The translations under genes were made by a program, and so were the position numbers. Of a stretch of DNA of 57,146 bases, positions 19,834-42,468 are shown in pieces. The DNA is from Eubacteriales bacterium. Lineage in GTDB: Bacteria; Bacillota; Clostridia; Lachnospirales; Lachnospiraceae. The stretch lies in NCBI GenBank assembly GCA_030527665.1, contig JAUNAK010000008.1, positions 1-57,146 of the forward strand, in the 5' to 3' direction. The number at the start of each line of letters is the position of its first letter. The first letter of the stretch is position 1. The notes under the pieces were generated by a model. The model was not told the DNA's origin. It was given only the letters and a program-made list of their open reading frames with translations, and ran no database searches.

Positions 19834-21747
19834 ATGTGTGGAATCTGTGGTTTTACAGGACATGATGTAGAACAGAATACAGTTATTACAAATATGATGA
19901 ATCGAATCATCCATCGCGGACCGGACGGTGCCGGCGTATACAGCAGCCCCGCCATCACGATGGGCTTTCGCCGCCTGTCGATCATCGATCTGAGCAGTGC
20001 AGGCGACCAGCCGATGTACAACGAAGACAAAAGTCTGGTCATCACCTTCAATGGCGAGATCTACAACTACAAAGAGCTCCGTGAAGAACTGGAAGCTGCC
20101 GGACATGTTTTTTCCAATCATGCAGATACGGAGGTTCTGGTTCACGGATATGAAGAATGGGGTGCCAGGCTTCTGGACCGTCTGCGCGGCATGTTTGCAT
20201 TTCTGATCTGGGATACCCAAAAGGAGGAACTGTTTGCCGCCCGCGATATGTTCGGCATCAAGCCCTTCTATTACGGTCAGATCGACGGCCAGCTGGTCTA
20301 TGCATCCGAGATCAAGAGCATTCTGGAATACCCGCTTTATCATAAAGAAGTAAATACCGAGGCACTGGAGCAGTACCTGTCTTTCGAATACTCGGTACTT
20401 CCCGAAACCTTCTTCAAAGGCATCTTCAAGCTGATGCCCGGTCATTACATGATCTGGAAAAAAGGGGAACTGTCGATCTCCCGCTATTTCGATCCCATGC
20501 TGATTCCGGACAAAGGACCGGTCGATTCAGATAAGCTTACCGATGCAATCGACGAAGCCATGCAGGAATCCATTCGCTATCATATGGTCAGCGATGTAGA
20601 AGTCGCTTCTCTCCTGTCCAGCGGTGTCGATTCCAGCTATGTAGCCACCCAGTTTCACGGTGCCCGCACCTATACGGTCGGCTTTGACTATGAGACCTAC
20701 AACGAGATTCCCTATGCACAGGAGTTATCACAGACCCTCGGCATTCAGAATACCGGAAAAGTAATCTCTACCGAGGAATACTGGAACGAACTTTCCCGCA
20801 TCCAGTACTTTATGGATGAACCGCTGGCGGATGCTTCCGCTTCCGCGCTTTACTTCGTAGACCGCGAAGCTGCCAGGGATGTAAAGGTCATCCTCTCCGG
20901 CGAGGGCTCCGATGAGTTTTTCGGCGGTTATGTAATCTACCATGAACCGATGTCTCTGGCACGCTATCAGAAGCTTCCCAAGGGGCTCCGTAAAGGGCTT
21001 GCCGCCGTTGTCGATAAGCTGCCCGGTCATCCGAAAGGAAAGGGCTTTATTCTCCGCGGTTCCCGTGATGTGCAGGAGCGCTTCATCGGCAACGCAAATG
21101 TATATGATATGAAGCTCCGCAATAAGGTTCTGAAGCATACCACATCGGATTCCGAACCCTGGCGTCTGACTGCTCCTTATTATCAGAAAGCACAGAACAG
21201 CGGGCTGAAAGAAACCGAGATGATGCAGTATATCGATCTGAACTTCTGGCTGGTCGGTGACATTCTTCTGAAAGCGGATAAGATGAGCATGGCCCATTCC
21301 ATCGAGAGCCGTGTTCCCTTCCTGGACCGCGGTGTCTGGGAATGTGCACGACGGATCCCGCTGGAGGAAAAAGTCACCAATGAAAATACGAAGGTATGTT
21401 TCCGCCGGGCTGCCCATCGCTATCTGACGGATTTCCAGGCTAAGAAGAAAAAGCTGGGCTTCCCGGTTCCGATCCGTGTATGGCTTCGTCAGGACAAATA
21501 CTACAATATCGTCAGAGAAGCATTTACCGGTGAGACTGCCGGGCAGTTCTTCCACACCGATGAACTGGTTCGCATTCTGGATGCCCATAAAGCGGGCAAA
21601 GAAGATTACAGCCGGCACATCTGGGTCGTATACATGTTCCTCCTCTGGTATAAGGAATACTTCACCGAAGGCGGCTGCAGTGTCACCATGGAAGATGAAC
21701 TGGAAATGGAGCGTACCAGAAAAAACAATCGTGCACAGGCTCTGTAA
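19834..21747 (+). CDS. asnB: Glutamine-hydrolysing asparagine synthetase
   Basis: Makes asparagine from aspartate, glutamine and ATP. The start is the ATG at 19834, because the mature protein needs the nucleophile Cys2 at the N terminus (MCGICGF); frame-open sequence upstream is not part of it. 637 residues: glutaminase domain with GPDGAG and FNGEIYNY, then the synthetase domain with the pyrophosphate loop SSGVDSSYVA and the conserved GEGSDEFFGGY. This is the AsnB/AsnO bacterial type of normal length. Its position after the polysaccharide genes is probably incidental, although AsnB paralogues that amidate cell-wall components exist and cannot be excluded. Confidence 0.96.
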   Translation: MCGICGFTGHDVEQNTVITNMMNRIIHRGPDGAGVYSSPAITMGFRRLSIIDLSSAGDQPMYNEDKSLVITFNGEIYNYKELREELEAAGHVFSNHADTEVLVHGYEEWGARLLDRLRGMFAFLIWDTQKEELFAARDMFGIKPFYYGQIDGQLVYASEIKSILEYPLYHKEVNTEALEQYLSFEYSVLPETFFKGIFKLMPGHYMIWKKGELSISRYFDPMLIPDKGPVDSDKLTDAIDEAMQESIRYHMVSDVEVASLLSSGVDSSYVATQFHGARTYTVGFDYETYNEIPYAQELSQTLGIQNTGKVISTEEYWNELSRIQYFMDEPLADASASALYFVDREAARDVKVILSGEGSDEFFGGYVIYHEPMSLARYQKLPKGLRKGLAAVVDKLPGHPKGKGFILRGSRDVQERFIGNANVYDMKLRNKVLKHTTSDSEPWRLTAPYYQKAQNSGLKETEMMQYIDLNFWLVGDILLKADKMSMAHSIESRVPFLDRGVWECARRIPLEEKVTNENTKVCFRRAAHRYLTDFQAKKKKLGFPVPIRVWLRQDKYYNIVREAFTGETAGQFFHTDELVRILDAHKAGKEDYSRHIWVVYMFLLWYKEYFTEGGCSVTMEDELEMERTRKNNRAQAL

Positions 21748-21867
21748 GTATTCGATTGCGAATCTCGCAGGATGTTTCATGCGGGCTGCTGAGCGCCTGG
21801 AGTTCCACCGCACTGAAAAAAATATGTACAGTGACAGTTTGCATACTCTAACAGATATTAAAATAAA

Positions 21868-21913: not shown

Positions 21914-21947
21914 AAAAGGAGCAGCTGCCGTGCAGCTGTTCCTTTTT
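21914..21947 (+). terminator. Terminator or attenuator ahead of the DtxR-family gene
   Basis: Stem AAAGGA-g-CAGCTG / CAGCTG-t-TCCTTT with a 5-nt loop and a run of seven T. It is about 165 nt past asnB and 95 nt before the regulator start. It can end asnB transcripts and would also stop transcripts from the promoter at 21868. Confidence 0.85.
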
Positions 21948-22041
21948 TTAACCCATACGCAGGGACCCGACAGCAGTCCTCTGCCCGCCATACGGGCAAA
22001 AATTCACGCTGGAATTTATTAAGAAAAGGTGGACCAAAACA

Positions 22042-22413
22042 ATGACCATTCAGAAATCCGCAGAAGATTATCTTGAAGCAATGCTCATGCTGAAACAGAA
22101 AAACGGTTATATCCGTTCCGTTGATATTGCCGCACATCTGGGAGTTACCAAACCGAGCGTCAGCTATGCTACCAAGCGTTTACGTGAGAACGGCTTCCTT
22201 ACCATGGACCATTCCGGCTTCATCACTCTTACCGAAACCGGTATGGAGATCGCAGACCGTGTATATTCCCGTCACAAAATGCTGACCGAGTTCTTCTCTC
22301 TGATCGGTGTCAGTGATGAAGTAGCACGCGAGGATGCCTGCAAAGTAGAACATGACATCAGCGAAGAGACCTTCAATGCCATGTCCCGCTATCTGGAACA
22401 GAATAAAGGCTGA
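22042..22413 (+). CDS. DtxR/MntR-family metal-dependent transcriptional regulator
   Basis: 123-residue regulator: winged helix-turn-helix (residues 1-65, with the recognition helix around VTKPSVSYATKRLREN) and a dimerisation/metal domain, without the SH3-like third domain of DtxR. Aligned by eye with B. subtilis MntR, the metal ligands are Asp9, Glu12, His78, Cys100, Glu103 and His104. MntR has Glu at the position of Cys100, while iron-sensing DtxR/IdeR has Cys there; so the site is a hybrid and could sense iron. Downstream lies a promoter flanked by two palindromes and a probable small RNA, the natural target candidate. Start at ATG after AAGGTGG-like sequence. Confidence 0.93.
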   Translation: MTIQKSAEDYLEAMLMLKQKNGYIRSVDIAAHLGVTKPSVSYATKRLRENGFLTMDHSGFITLTETGMEIADRVYSRHKMLTEFFSLIGVSDEVAREDACKVEHDISEETFNAMSRYLEQNKG

Positions 22414-22502: not shown

Positions 22503-22518
22503 GTTTGACATATCTAAC
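22503..22518 (+). promoter_or_regulatory. Operator-like palindrome 1
   Basis: GTTTG-ACATAT-CTAAC, overlapping the -35 hexamer TTGACA (22505-22510). It shares architecture with palindrome 2 (one mismatch in the left half). The two centres are 41 bp apart, close to four helical turns. Confidence 0.6.
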
Positions 22519-22536
22519 TTTTGGTGTTACTATAAT
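22505..22536 (+). promoter_or_regulatory. Promoter of the candidate small RNA
   Basis: -35 TTGACA (22505-22510) is consensus. Two -10 readings are possible: TACTAT (22528-22533) with a 17-nt spacer, or TATAAT (22531-22536) with a 20-nt spacer. Either gives a start near 22540-22543. No open reading frame with a ribosome binding site follows before the terminator at 22701. Confidence 0.75.
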
Positions 22537-22543
22537 CTTGCAA

Positions 22544-22559
22544 GTTAGATATAACTAAC
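22544..22559 (+). promoter_or_regulatory. Operator-like palindrome 2
   Basis: GTTAG-ATATAA-CTAAC, a perfect 5-bp inverted repeat with 6-bp spacer over the predicted transcription start. The half-sites resemble the GTTAG/CTAAC core in the DtxR consensus, but the spacing differs, so assignment to the neighbouring regulator is inference. Confidence 0.6.
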
Positions 22560-22695
22560 AAACGCACATACATATCTCTTTCTAAATGTGACAAGAAGTC
22601 ACGCGTTAACATACCCATCGTTAACAAAACCTGGACACCCCATATGTCCAACCTCCATCGCACTGCAGCCTAACACAACTGCAGATGCATAATGA

Positions 22696-22737
22696 AAAAA
22701 GGAGCTGCCATTCCATCCGGCAGCTCCTCTTTTATTT
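22696..22737 (+). terminator. Terminator of the candidate small RNA
   Basis: GGAGCTGCC / GGCAGCTCC (22701-22709 with 22719-22727), 9-nt loop, preceded by AAAAA and followed by TCTTTTATTT. Confidence 0.92.
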
Positions 22738-22764
22738 AAAAGACTCTCCATTTAAAATCCATCA

Positions 22765-42272: not shown

Positions 42273-42281
42273 CCTTCATCG

Positions 42282-42356
<75 letters not shown>

Positions 42357-42393
42357 TTTCAATATAAAATTGTATGAGACTTTAAGTCTCAAG

Positions 42394-42468
<75 letters not shown>

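Follow-up and report, generated by a model that had tools for sequence, protein, structure and literature searches.

A candidate DtxR-controlled, iron-sparing small RNA family in Bilifractor and related Lachnospiraceae

A gene for a small RNA (sRNA) was predicted in the gene-free stretch 3' of a DtxR/MntR-type repressor gene, on the same strand, in 57,146 nucleotides of Lachnospiraceae DNA that were analyzed as a whole (hereafter the window). Of the 16 genomes analyzed from the genus, apparently Bilifractor (Lachnospiraceae), 11 contained homologues, one of which is truncated where its contig ends; a few more homologues were found elsewhere in the Lachnospiraceae. The RNA is probably an iron-repressed, DtxR-controlled, trans-acting sRNA that would block ribosome-binding sites, of the same kind as FsrA, IsrR, and MrsI, and a probability of about 0.73 is assigned to this reading. 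It draws on features recognized by sequence, namely palindromic boxes, a promoter, a covarying hairpin, anti-Shine-Dalgarno stretches predicted to be unpaired, a terminator, conservation among relatives, and the presence of the same box before iron genes.

Table 1. Features of the sRNA locus and their positions in the window
Feature	Position	Strand	Basis or remarks
Third box, GTTTGCATACTCTAAC	21837-21852	+	Located by pattern search of this genome, ~190 bp 5' of the regulator gene
Metal-dependent repressor of the DtxR/MntR type (123 aa; short form with two domains)	22042-22413	+	Pfam, NCBIfam, PDB alignment
Box 1, GTTTGACATATCTAAC	22503-22518	+	Palindrome spanning the -35 element
Promoter, TTGACA-17 bp-TACTAT	22505-22533	+	-35 at 22505-22510, -10 at 22528-22533
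Small RNA gene, predicted transcript	22542-22738	+	Fold and homologues
Box 2, GTTAGATATAACTAAC	22544-22559	+	Palindrome located at the predicted start of transcription
Unpaired anti-Shine-Dalgarno stretch, TCTCTTTCTAAA (ATCCTTTCAAA in relatives)	22575-22586	+	Alignment
Further short hairpin	22588-22602	+	Predicted fold
Hairpin, loop ATACCCATC	22605-22625	+	Predicted fold
Core hairpin, loop CCCCATA	22632-22650	+	Corresponds to the covarying hairpin with a CAUC loop in relatives
Anti-Shine-Dalgarno ACCTCC, adjoining the core hairpin on its 3' side	22651-22656	+	Predicted to be unpaired; position conserved
Hairpin, loop CCTAACACAA	22660-22688	+	Predicted fold
Intrinsic terminator, loop ATTCCATCC	22691-22736	+	Arms 22701-22709/22719-22727, then a T-rich run

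Organization of the locus

The two palindromes of the form GTTNG-N6-CTAAC that the original prediction had placed over the -35 element and the transcription start were both present, with their centers 41 bp apart, as was the consensus promoter (Table 1). The arrangement is that expected of a DtxR-regulated promoter, with a palindromic operator that lies over the promoter and is common to other genes of a putative metal regulon. The next gene, which encodes an AI-2E family transporter, is convergent to the sRNA, which is therefore a stand-alone unit. The third box makes an autoregulation of the regulator gene possible. Between this box and the repressor gene, a strong terminator-like hairpin was observed at 21918-21949 (GGAGCAGCTGCCGTGCAGCTGTTCC followed by T7), which may be either the end of asnB or a leader of the repressor gene. 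Elsewhere in the window, two tRNA-Pro(CGG) genes of equal score were found in tandem on the minus strand (42281-42355 and 42393-42467).

The pattern GTTWGN6CWAAC occurred at six sites in the whole 2.95 Mb genome, compared with three for a reversed-pattern control, and three of the six were located within 723 bp around the repressor gene. When one mismatch to GTTAGN6CTAAC was allowed, 12 sites were found, compared with 47 for the control. Hence, no genome-wide enrichment of the box pattern was observed.

The repressor matched the Pfam family Fe_dep_repr_C (4.4e-14), and an alignment with PDB structures placed its residues D9, E12, H78, C100, E103, and H104 at ligand positions. Among the NCBIfam equivalogs, it scored best against the MntR models, under their cut-offs. 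In the PDB alignment, C100 stands at the position of an MntR Glu; we take it to correspond to the Cys of DtxR, whereas D9 and E12 are presumably equivalent to the Asp and Glu ligands of MntR. The ligand set is thus mixed rather than purely iron-type. Of the original description as a DtxR-family repressor with an iron-type Cys ligand, the family (by Pfam) and the cysteine were retained, while an iron-type character of the entire site was not. Additionally, the own genome contains only one Fur-family match, directly before a rubredoxin/rubrerythrin-like ORF (named by eye), and by this sequence context it is probably PerR.

Predicted structure of the RNA

The predicted RNA, about 195 nt in length, had a folding energy of -54.2 kcal/mol, compared with a mean of -26.8 for shuffled sequences (z = -7.84), and none of the 200 shuffles equaled it. 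All six RNAs tested in this manner folded better than their shuffles, with z from -5.3 to -8.8. The length and the C-rich hairpin loops given in the original prediction (ATACCCATC, CCCCATA, and CCTAACACAA) were recovered, along with the strong terminator, the loop of which (ATTCCATCC) is C-rich like the others. The hairpin at 22588-22602 and a 5' hairpin that box 2 forms in the predicted fold were absent from the earlier list. For the hairpin at 22660-22688, no counterpart was found at that place in the other aligned RNAs. The ACCTCC previously described as exposed agreed with the fold, in which its CCTCC had an unpaired probability of 0.94, and the mean for CTCTTTC was 0.96. With its own promoter, a terminator, a stable fold, and no conserved reading frame, the locus has the features looked for in a trans-acting sRNA of Gram-positive bacteria.

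Distribution and genomic context of homologues

A direct blastn search with this stretch, which covered 60 other genomes, matched relatives at three places through the promoter part alone, and these matches led to homologues with diverged RNA bodies. A blastn match in G050, AT-rich by eye, was attributed to chance. Two models were then used: R1, a sequence-only model of the promoter, box 2, and the first ~45 nt built from seven homologues, and R2, which comprised 14 sequences; the E-values of both are rough, as the calibration was shortened. At E <= 2.3e-13, R1 identified 11 places in 10 of the 16 genus genomes (G000, which is the genome of the window, G002, G003, G007, G008, G009 (twice), G010, G011, G012, and G015), seven of which were in the model and four outside it. 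A hairpin with a C-rich loop, CCUCC, and a terminator were found downstream of the R1 places, and the four places outside the model (G003, the second G009 copy, G010, and G015) were followed by a full RNA. The homologue in G013 was cut at a contig end (R1, 4.2e-5). No convincing homologue was identified by R1 in the other five genomes (G001, G004, G005, G006, and G014), and weaker R1 matches in the genus, up to E = 10, were not counted as homologues. Three of these genomes (G005, G006, and G014) contain a close dtxR although no convincing sRNA homologue was identified. In G003, which is 81% complete, the sRNA was present and no dtxR match was found.

Among 397 genomes of the family, R1 at E <= 0.5 matched 346, almost all of which were judged to be background promoter matches and left out of the homologue set. 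R2 at E <= 1e-5 matched 12 of the 397: these were the RNA itself in G000, G008, G025, and G097, short terminated RNAs in G285, G107, and G081, and box promoters in the remaining five. G025 represents a further genus outside the R2 model (5.1e-14), while G097 is in the model (4.2e-13). A pattern scan of named GTDB genomes returned 21 loci, and two of them (L120 and L126) were homologues in Candidatus Scatomonas MAGs. Nine were already in the set (L114, L116, L117, L118, L121, L122, L124, L128, and L130), five were read and rejected by eye (L111, L119, L123, L129, and L131), and five were left out of the reading (L112, L113, L115, L125, and L127). The pattern GTTTGACATNTCTAAC, when searched in 200 family genomes, occurred at one place beyond the own genome (G183), inside an flgE-like ORF (by eye), and was regarded as chance.

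The short RNAs of G285, G107, and G081 (L173, L169, and L170) were observed to have a box at their start and a CATACAAAT-like sequence followed at once by a terminator. By their sequence, they are possibly reduced forms of the same sRNA in other Lachnospiraceae genera.

The sRNA adjoins dtxR in G000, G007, G008, and G013 and is one small gene away from it in G002 and G011, i.e., in six of the 11 genomes. In G009, G012, and G015, the sRNA and dtxR are located on different contigs, and in G003 and G010 the sRNA is located at the end of a contig or on a short one. The gene order in Scatomonas L120 is a P-type ATPase, a DtxR-domain gene, the sRNA, DUF3793, and a flavodoxin-like ORF (the last by eye). 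In addition, each of the two sRNA copies in G009 (L006 and L066) had a D,D-carboxypeptidase-like ORF (by eye) in its vicinity, which suggests that the sRNA was duplicated or is mobile.

A small heavy-metal-associated (HMA) domain protein with a box-like site upstream was observed between dtxR and the sRNA in G002 (L009 983-1249, minus strand) and G011. Its Pfam HMA match in G002 was under the cut-off (E 1.2e-4), and the versions in relatives were named by eye. An HMA-like ORF also followed dtxR in G014 and stood behind a box in G003 (by eye; HMA ORFs at L009, L010, L013, and L039).

Conserved features and covariation

Conservation of the boxes was read from an alignment of 14 homologous promoters. 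The GTTAG half of box 2 was invariant in all 14, while the CTAAC half was exact in eight. Box 1 was whole or nearly whole in six (G000, G002, both copies of G009, G011, and G012), reduced to its CTAAC half in G003, G010, and G015, and absent in G007, G008, G097, and both Scatomonas. The start-site box was the only one kept in all aligned homologues; the -35 box was not.

Approximately 33 nt into the RNA, the homologues carry ATCCTTTCAAA (in the window, TCTCTTTCTAAA), which includes CCUUUC or CUCUUUC. This seed (CCTTTC/CTCTTTC) had an unpaired probability of at least 0.75 in 12 of 15 RNAs and was predicted to be paired in the other three (0.18-0.23 in G007, G008, and G011). Further downstream, a hairpin with a C-rich loop, followed by CCUCC 1-4 nt after its 6-bp stem, was found in all 12 genus RNAs examined. 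The loops mostly bear CAUC, being CCCAUCA, CCCAUCU, CCAUCA, AUCAUCA, or CCUCAUCAA in the relatives and CCCCAUA in the window. The same hairpin and CCUCC were present in G025 and also in Scatomonas L120, where the loop is long; in G097, CCTCCATC was found inside the terminator loop, and in Scatomonas L126 the core hairpin part was missing. The core CCTCC had an unpaired probability of at least 0.73 in 13 of the 14 RNAs having it and was half paired in G012 (0.46). The terminator carries a CCCATC loop of its own in G002, G009, G011, and G012. Counts of YCATC exceeded those of shuffles at p < 0.05 in only three of 15 RNAs. As expected of an iron-sparing sRNA, the C-rich and seed stretches are predicted to be unpaired and are complementary to ribosome-binding sites.

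MAFFT, applied to the whole RNA as well as to the core hairpin, left the loops out of register, and the core stem was therefore aligned manually. Across eight distinct 6-bp stems (G025 included, rows with equal arms merged), 46 of 48 pairs were standard, compared with 171 of 336 (51%) for swapped arms, and this high pairing is partly by construction since the arms selected were those of the loop-closing stem. A first count without G025 gave 45 of 48. Stem counts left out Scatomonas L120 for its long loop, G097 for CCTCCATC in its terminator loop, and L126, which has no core. Two-sided changes were observed at all six stem positions; these and the swapped-arm control are evidence of covariation. 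With 46 standard pairs despite sequence change, the hairpin has been kept, and the C-rich loop and CCUCC have stayed with it. The original prediction had proposed conservation of palindromes and hairpins, rather than of a protein frame, as its test, and the outcome was favorable, given the homologues in 11 of 16 genomes, the covarying stems, and the lack of a frame shared by distant members.

Genes carrying the same box and the metal sensed

Several boxes of the own genome precede iron-related genes. Of the 12 sites within one mismatch, three are those around the repressor gene, two precede a DUF3793-flavodoxin operon (C28), and one precedes feoA-feoB (C113). At feoA-feoB, another site, with two mismatches, follows 40 bp on (by eye), so that feoAB has the same two-site layout as the sRNA promoter. 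One box precedes a hydrolase gene (C66), two belong to the exporter described below, and the other three sites may be chance. Boxes in relatives were found before an HMA-type gene (G003) and a gene for a FeoB-associated-type small protein (G006), both named by eye; others that were read preceded unrelated genes or none. The R2 matches in other genera lay before flavodoxin (G350 and G307) and a siderophore-type ABC binding protein (G201), again by eye. Flavodoxin replaces ferredoxin under iron starvation. Considering the same box before feoAB, the DUF3793-flavodoxin operon, and the iron-type genes of relatives, the siderophore-type gene among them, the metal sensed is probably iron rather than manganese, by which the metal control originally proposed is both supported and narrowed.

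The alternative that best withstands this evidence, albeit an unlikely one, is a controller that senses manganese in the manner of MntR, with the RNA serving in manganese sparing or in a manganese/iron switch of the RsaC type. The best family scores of the repressor, its MntR-like Asp/Glu pair (D9 and E12), and the precedent of RsaC, which is placed under MntR in a review (PMC9294342), would all agree with such a sensor. However, the box precedes feoAB, flavodoxin, and siderophore-type genes (the last by eye), and no manganese transporter was recognized among the genes read next to the boxes. Moreover, the MntR Glu is replaced by Cys in the repressor, and a paralogue of the repressor (61% identical) is located in G006 beside feoA-feoA-feoB-like ORFs (by eye).

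Other box-bearing genes were observed as well. Two boxes 92 bp apart precede a MacB-like ABC exporter (by eye; L138/L139, G000:C140:6359 and 6451), and a box was likewise observed at a MacB-like operon of a different genus (L172, G370). In G012, two boxes were found near divergent EntE-like and thioesterase ORFs (by eye; L052, C32 ~21125-21269), which suggests that this Lachnospiraceae genome has a siderophore-type cluster under iron control. In G012, the sRNA is located near a phosphopantetheinyl-transferase-like ORF (L005 3048-3785).

Proposed mechanism and candidate targets

From the above features we infer a mechanism that extends to repressor binding, the metal, expression, pairing with mRNAs, and the identity of the targets. 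In the presence of iron, the neighboring DtxR-type protein would occupy box 2 at the start site and shut the promoter, and in the window species box 1 over the -35 element would help repression. When iron is low, the repressor would be released and the ~195-nt RNA transcribed up to the terminator. Its anti-Shine-Dalgarno stretches (CUCUUUC/CCUUUC in the 5' part and CCUCC downstream of the core hairpin) would then, along with its C-rich loops, pair with ribosome-binding sites of mRNAs. This pairing would block translation, probably of dispensable iron-using proteins, resulting in iron sparing. The FsrA/RyhB-like function of the original prediction would be consistent with this anatomy.

For most members of the genus, the sequence complementary to the 5' element amounts to an entire translation start, UUUGAAAGGAUUUUGUAUGCA, comprising a Shine-Dalgarno sequence, a spacer, and AUG. 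The complement of the diverged element in the window is AGAAAGAG-N6-AUG, while those of G009 and G012 have no AUG at that distance (by eye). Targets were searched with the common genus seed rather than the diverged seed of the window. The complement of the 21-mer seed, with up to three mismatches, was found at seven places in the 16 genomes, six of which were sRNA genes, and no gene recurred. Similarly, TTTGAAAGGAT-N2-7-ATG was found at 13 places, eight of which were sRNA genes and five of which had no gene in common. Any targets of the common seed would therefore be reached by short pairing.

The missing extended complement would also suit a cis-acting or sponge RNA, one that controls the repressor gene, a neighbor, or an RNA-binding protein through repeated C-rich loops, as would the position beside or near dtxR in six of 11 genomes and the repetition of similar motifs (five YCATC each in G002 and G011). 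Such a role appears decidedly improbable, given that in G009, G012, and G015 the RNA, with its own terminator, is on another contig than dtxR, the neighboring genes vary, and conservation is among the highest in the two anti-Shine-Dalgarno stretches. A short mRNA or dual-function RNA for a small protein is highly improbable: MntS/RybA of E. coli, an MntR-regulated "sRNA" that makes a small protein, provides a precedent, and ORFs of 15-76 codons occurred in 14 of the 16 transcripts examined, some of them common to close relatives, but no frame common to distant members was seen by eye in the 16 transcripts, no Shine-Dalgarno-like sequence precedes the ORFs in the place tested, the G003 and partial G013 transcripts have no ORF of at least 15 codons, and the hairpin stems show compensatory changes.

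The preferred reading, an iron-repressed sRNA that acts in trans on ribosome-binding sites, can be extended into a more tentative proposal, for which the odds seem somewhat short of even. The RNA would represent a new Lachnospiraceae iron-sparing family under a DtxR-type iron repressor, in which the operator palindrome doubles as the 5' hairpin and the 5' seed (in most genus members the exact complement of UUUGAAAGGAUUUUGUAUGCA), C-rich CAUC loops, and CCUCC together form a broad start-site blocker; a shorter form, consisting of the box, a CATACAAAT-like stretch, and a terminator, may run through other genera. Lachnospiraceae are major gut anaerobes rich in iron-sulfur enzymes. With an RNA family, an operator, a likely regulator, and a candidate regulon (feoAB and DUF3793-flavodoxin) at hand, the question becomes testable in cultured Bilifractor porci.

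Comparison with known systems

No Rfam family matched the window locus at the gathering threshold, and a permissive Rfam search gave ten matches, all under their cut-offs (e.g., rli40, a minus-strand match across the terminator that scored 21.9 of 100 bits). For seven homologue loci, three matches were obtained at E <= 1, likewise all under cut-off, including Thr_leader with 30 of 55 bits (at the RNA end in G009) and AgrB with 26.8 of 40. The comparison with the FsrA sequence was made via the Rfam scan alone. Assignment to the iron-sparing kind would be by likeness of design. In the LhrC family of Listeria, Shine-Dalgarno regions are likewise bound through C-rich motifs present in several repeats, and this family differs in being multicopy and controlled by LisRK in envelope stress.

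The known sRNAs with the most similar logic are IsrR and FsrA. FsrA of Bacillus subtilis is described as a Fur-controlled iron-stress sRNA with a C-rich motif that binds Shine-Dalgarno sequences (PMC9410917). The window RNA resembles it in its Gram-positive host and in C-rich stretches complementary to Shine-Dalgarno sequences, whereas FsrA is under Fur and has FbpABC helpers, and the window RNA has a likely DtxR-type controller. IsrR of Staphylococcus aureus is described as having hairpins, a terminator, and three C-rich regions that are unpaired, of which two lie in loops and the third next to a stem, and as pairing with Shine-Dalgarno regions of mRNAs for iron enzymes (PMC9410917). It differs in its Fur control, its occurrence in staphylococci, and its C-runs, where the window RNA family has CAUC loops, CCUCC, and CCUUUC.

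With respect to the regulator, MrsI of Mycobacterium tuberculosis is described as an iron-sparing sRNA with a site for IdeR, a DtxR-family protein, in its promoter (PMC8628891). A DtxR-family site in the promoter of an iron sRNA is the shared feature, the site being a predicted one here. MrsI differs in its size of about 100 nt, its six-nucleotide seed, and its actinobacterial host. RsaC of S. aureus is likewise an sRNA under a DtxR-family repressor, MntR, with manganese as its metal, and the available part of the same 2022 review lists no sRNA for DtxR/iron (PMC9294342). The original claim that DtxR-type control is undescribed therefore does not hold in general, given the IdeR site of MrsI and the listing of RsaC under MntR, and its novelty can hold only for the Lachnospiraceae group, for which no paper on an iron sRNA or on an iron regulon of the DtxR type was found among the titles and abstract openings of the open-access literature. 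If the preferred reading is correct, a DtxR-type iron repressor in Firmicutes would join Fur (FsrA and IsrR) and IdeR (MrsI) in controlling iron-sparing RNAs, and the iron-sparing kind would have arisen again with the same Shine-Dalgarno-blocking logic.
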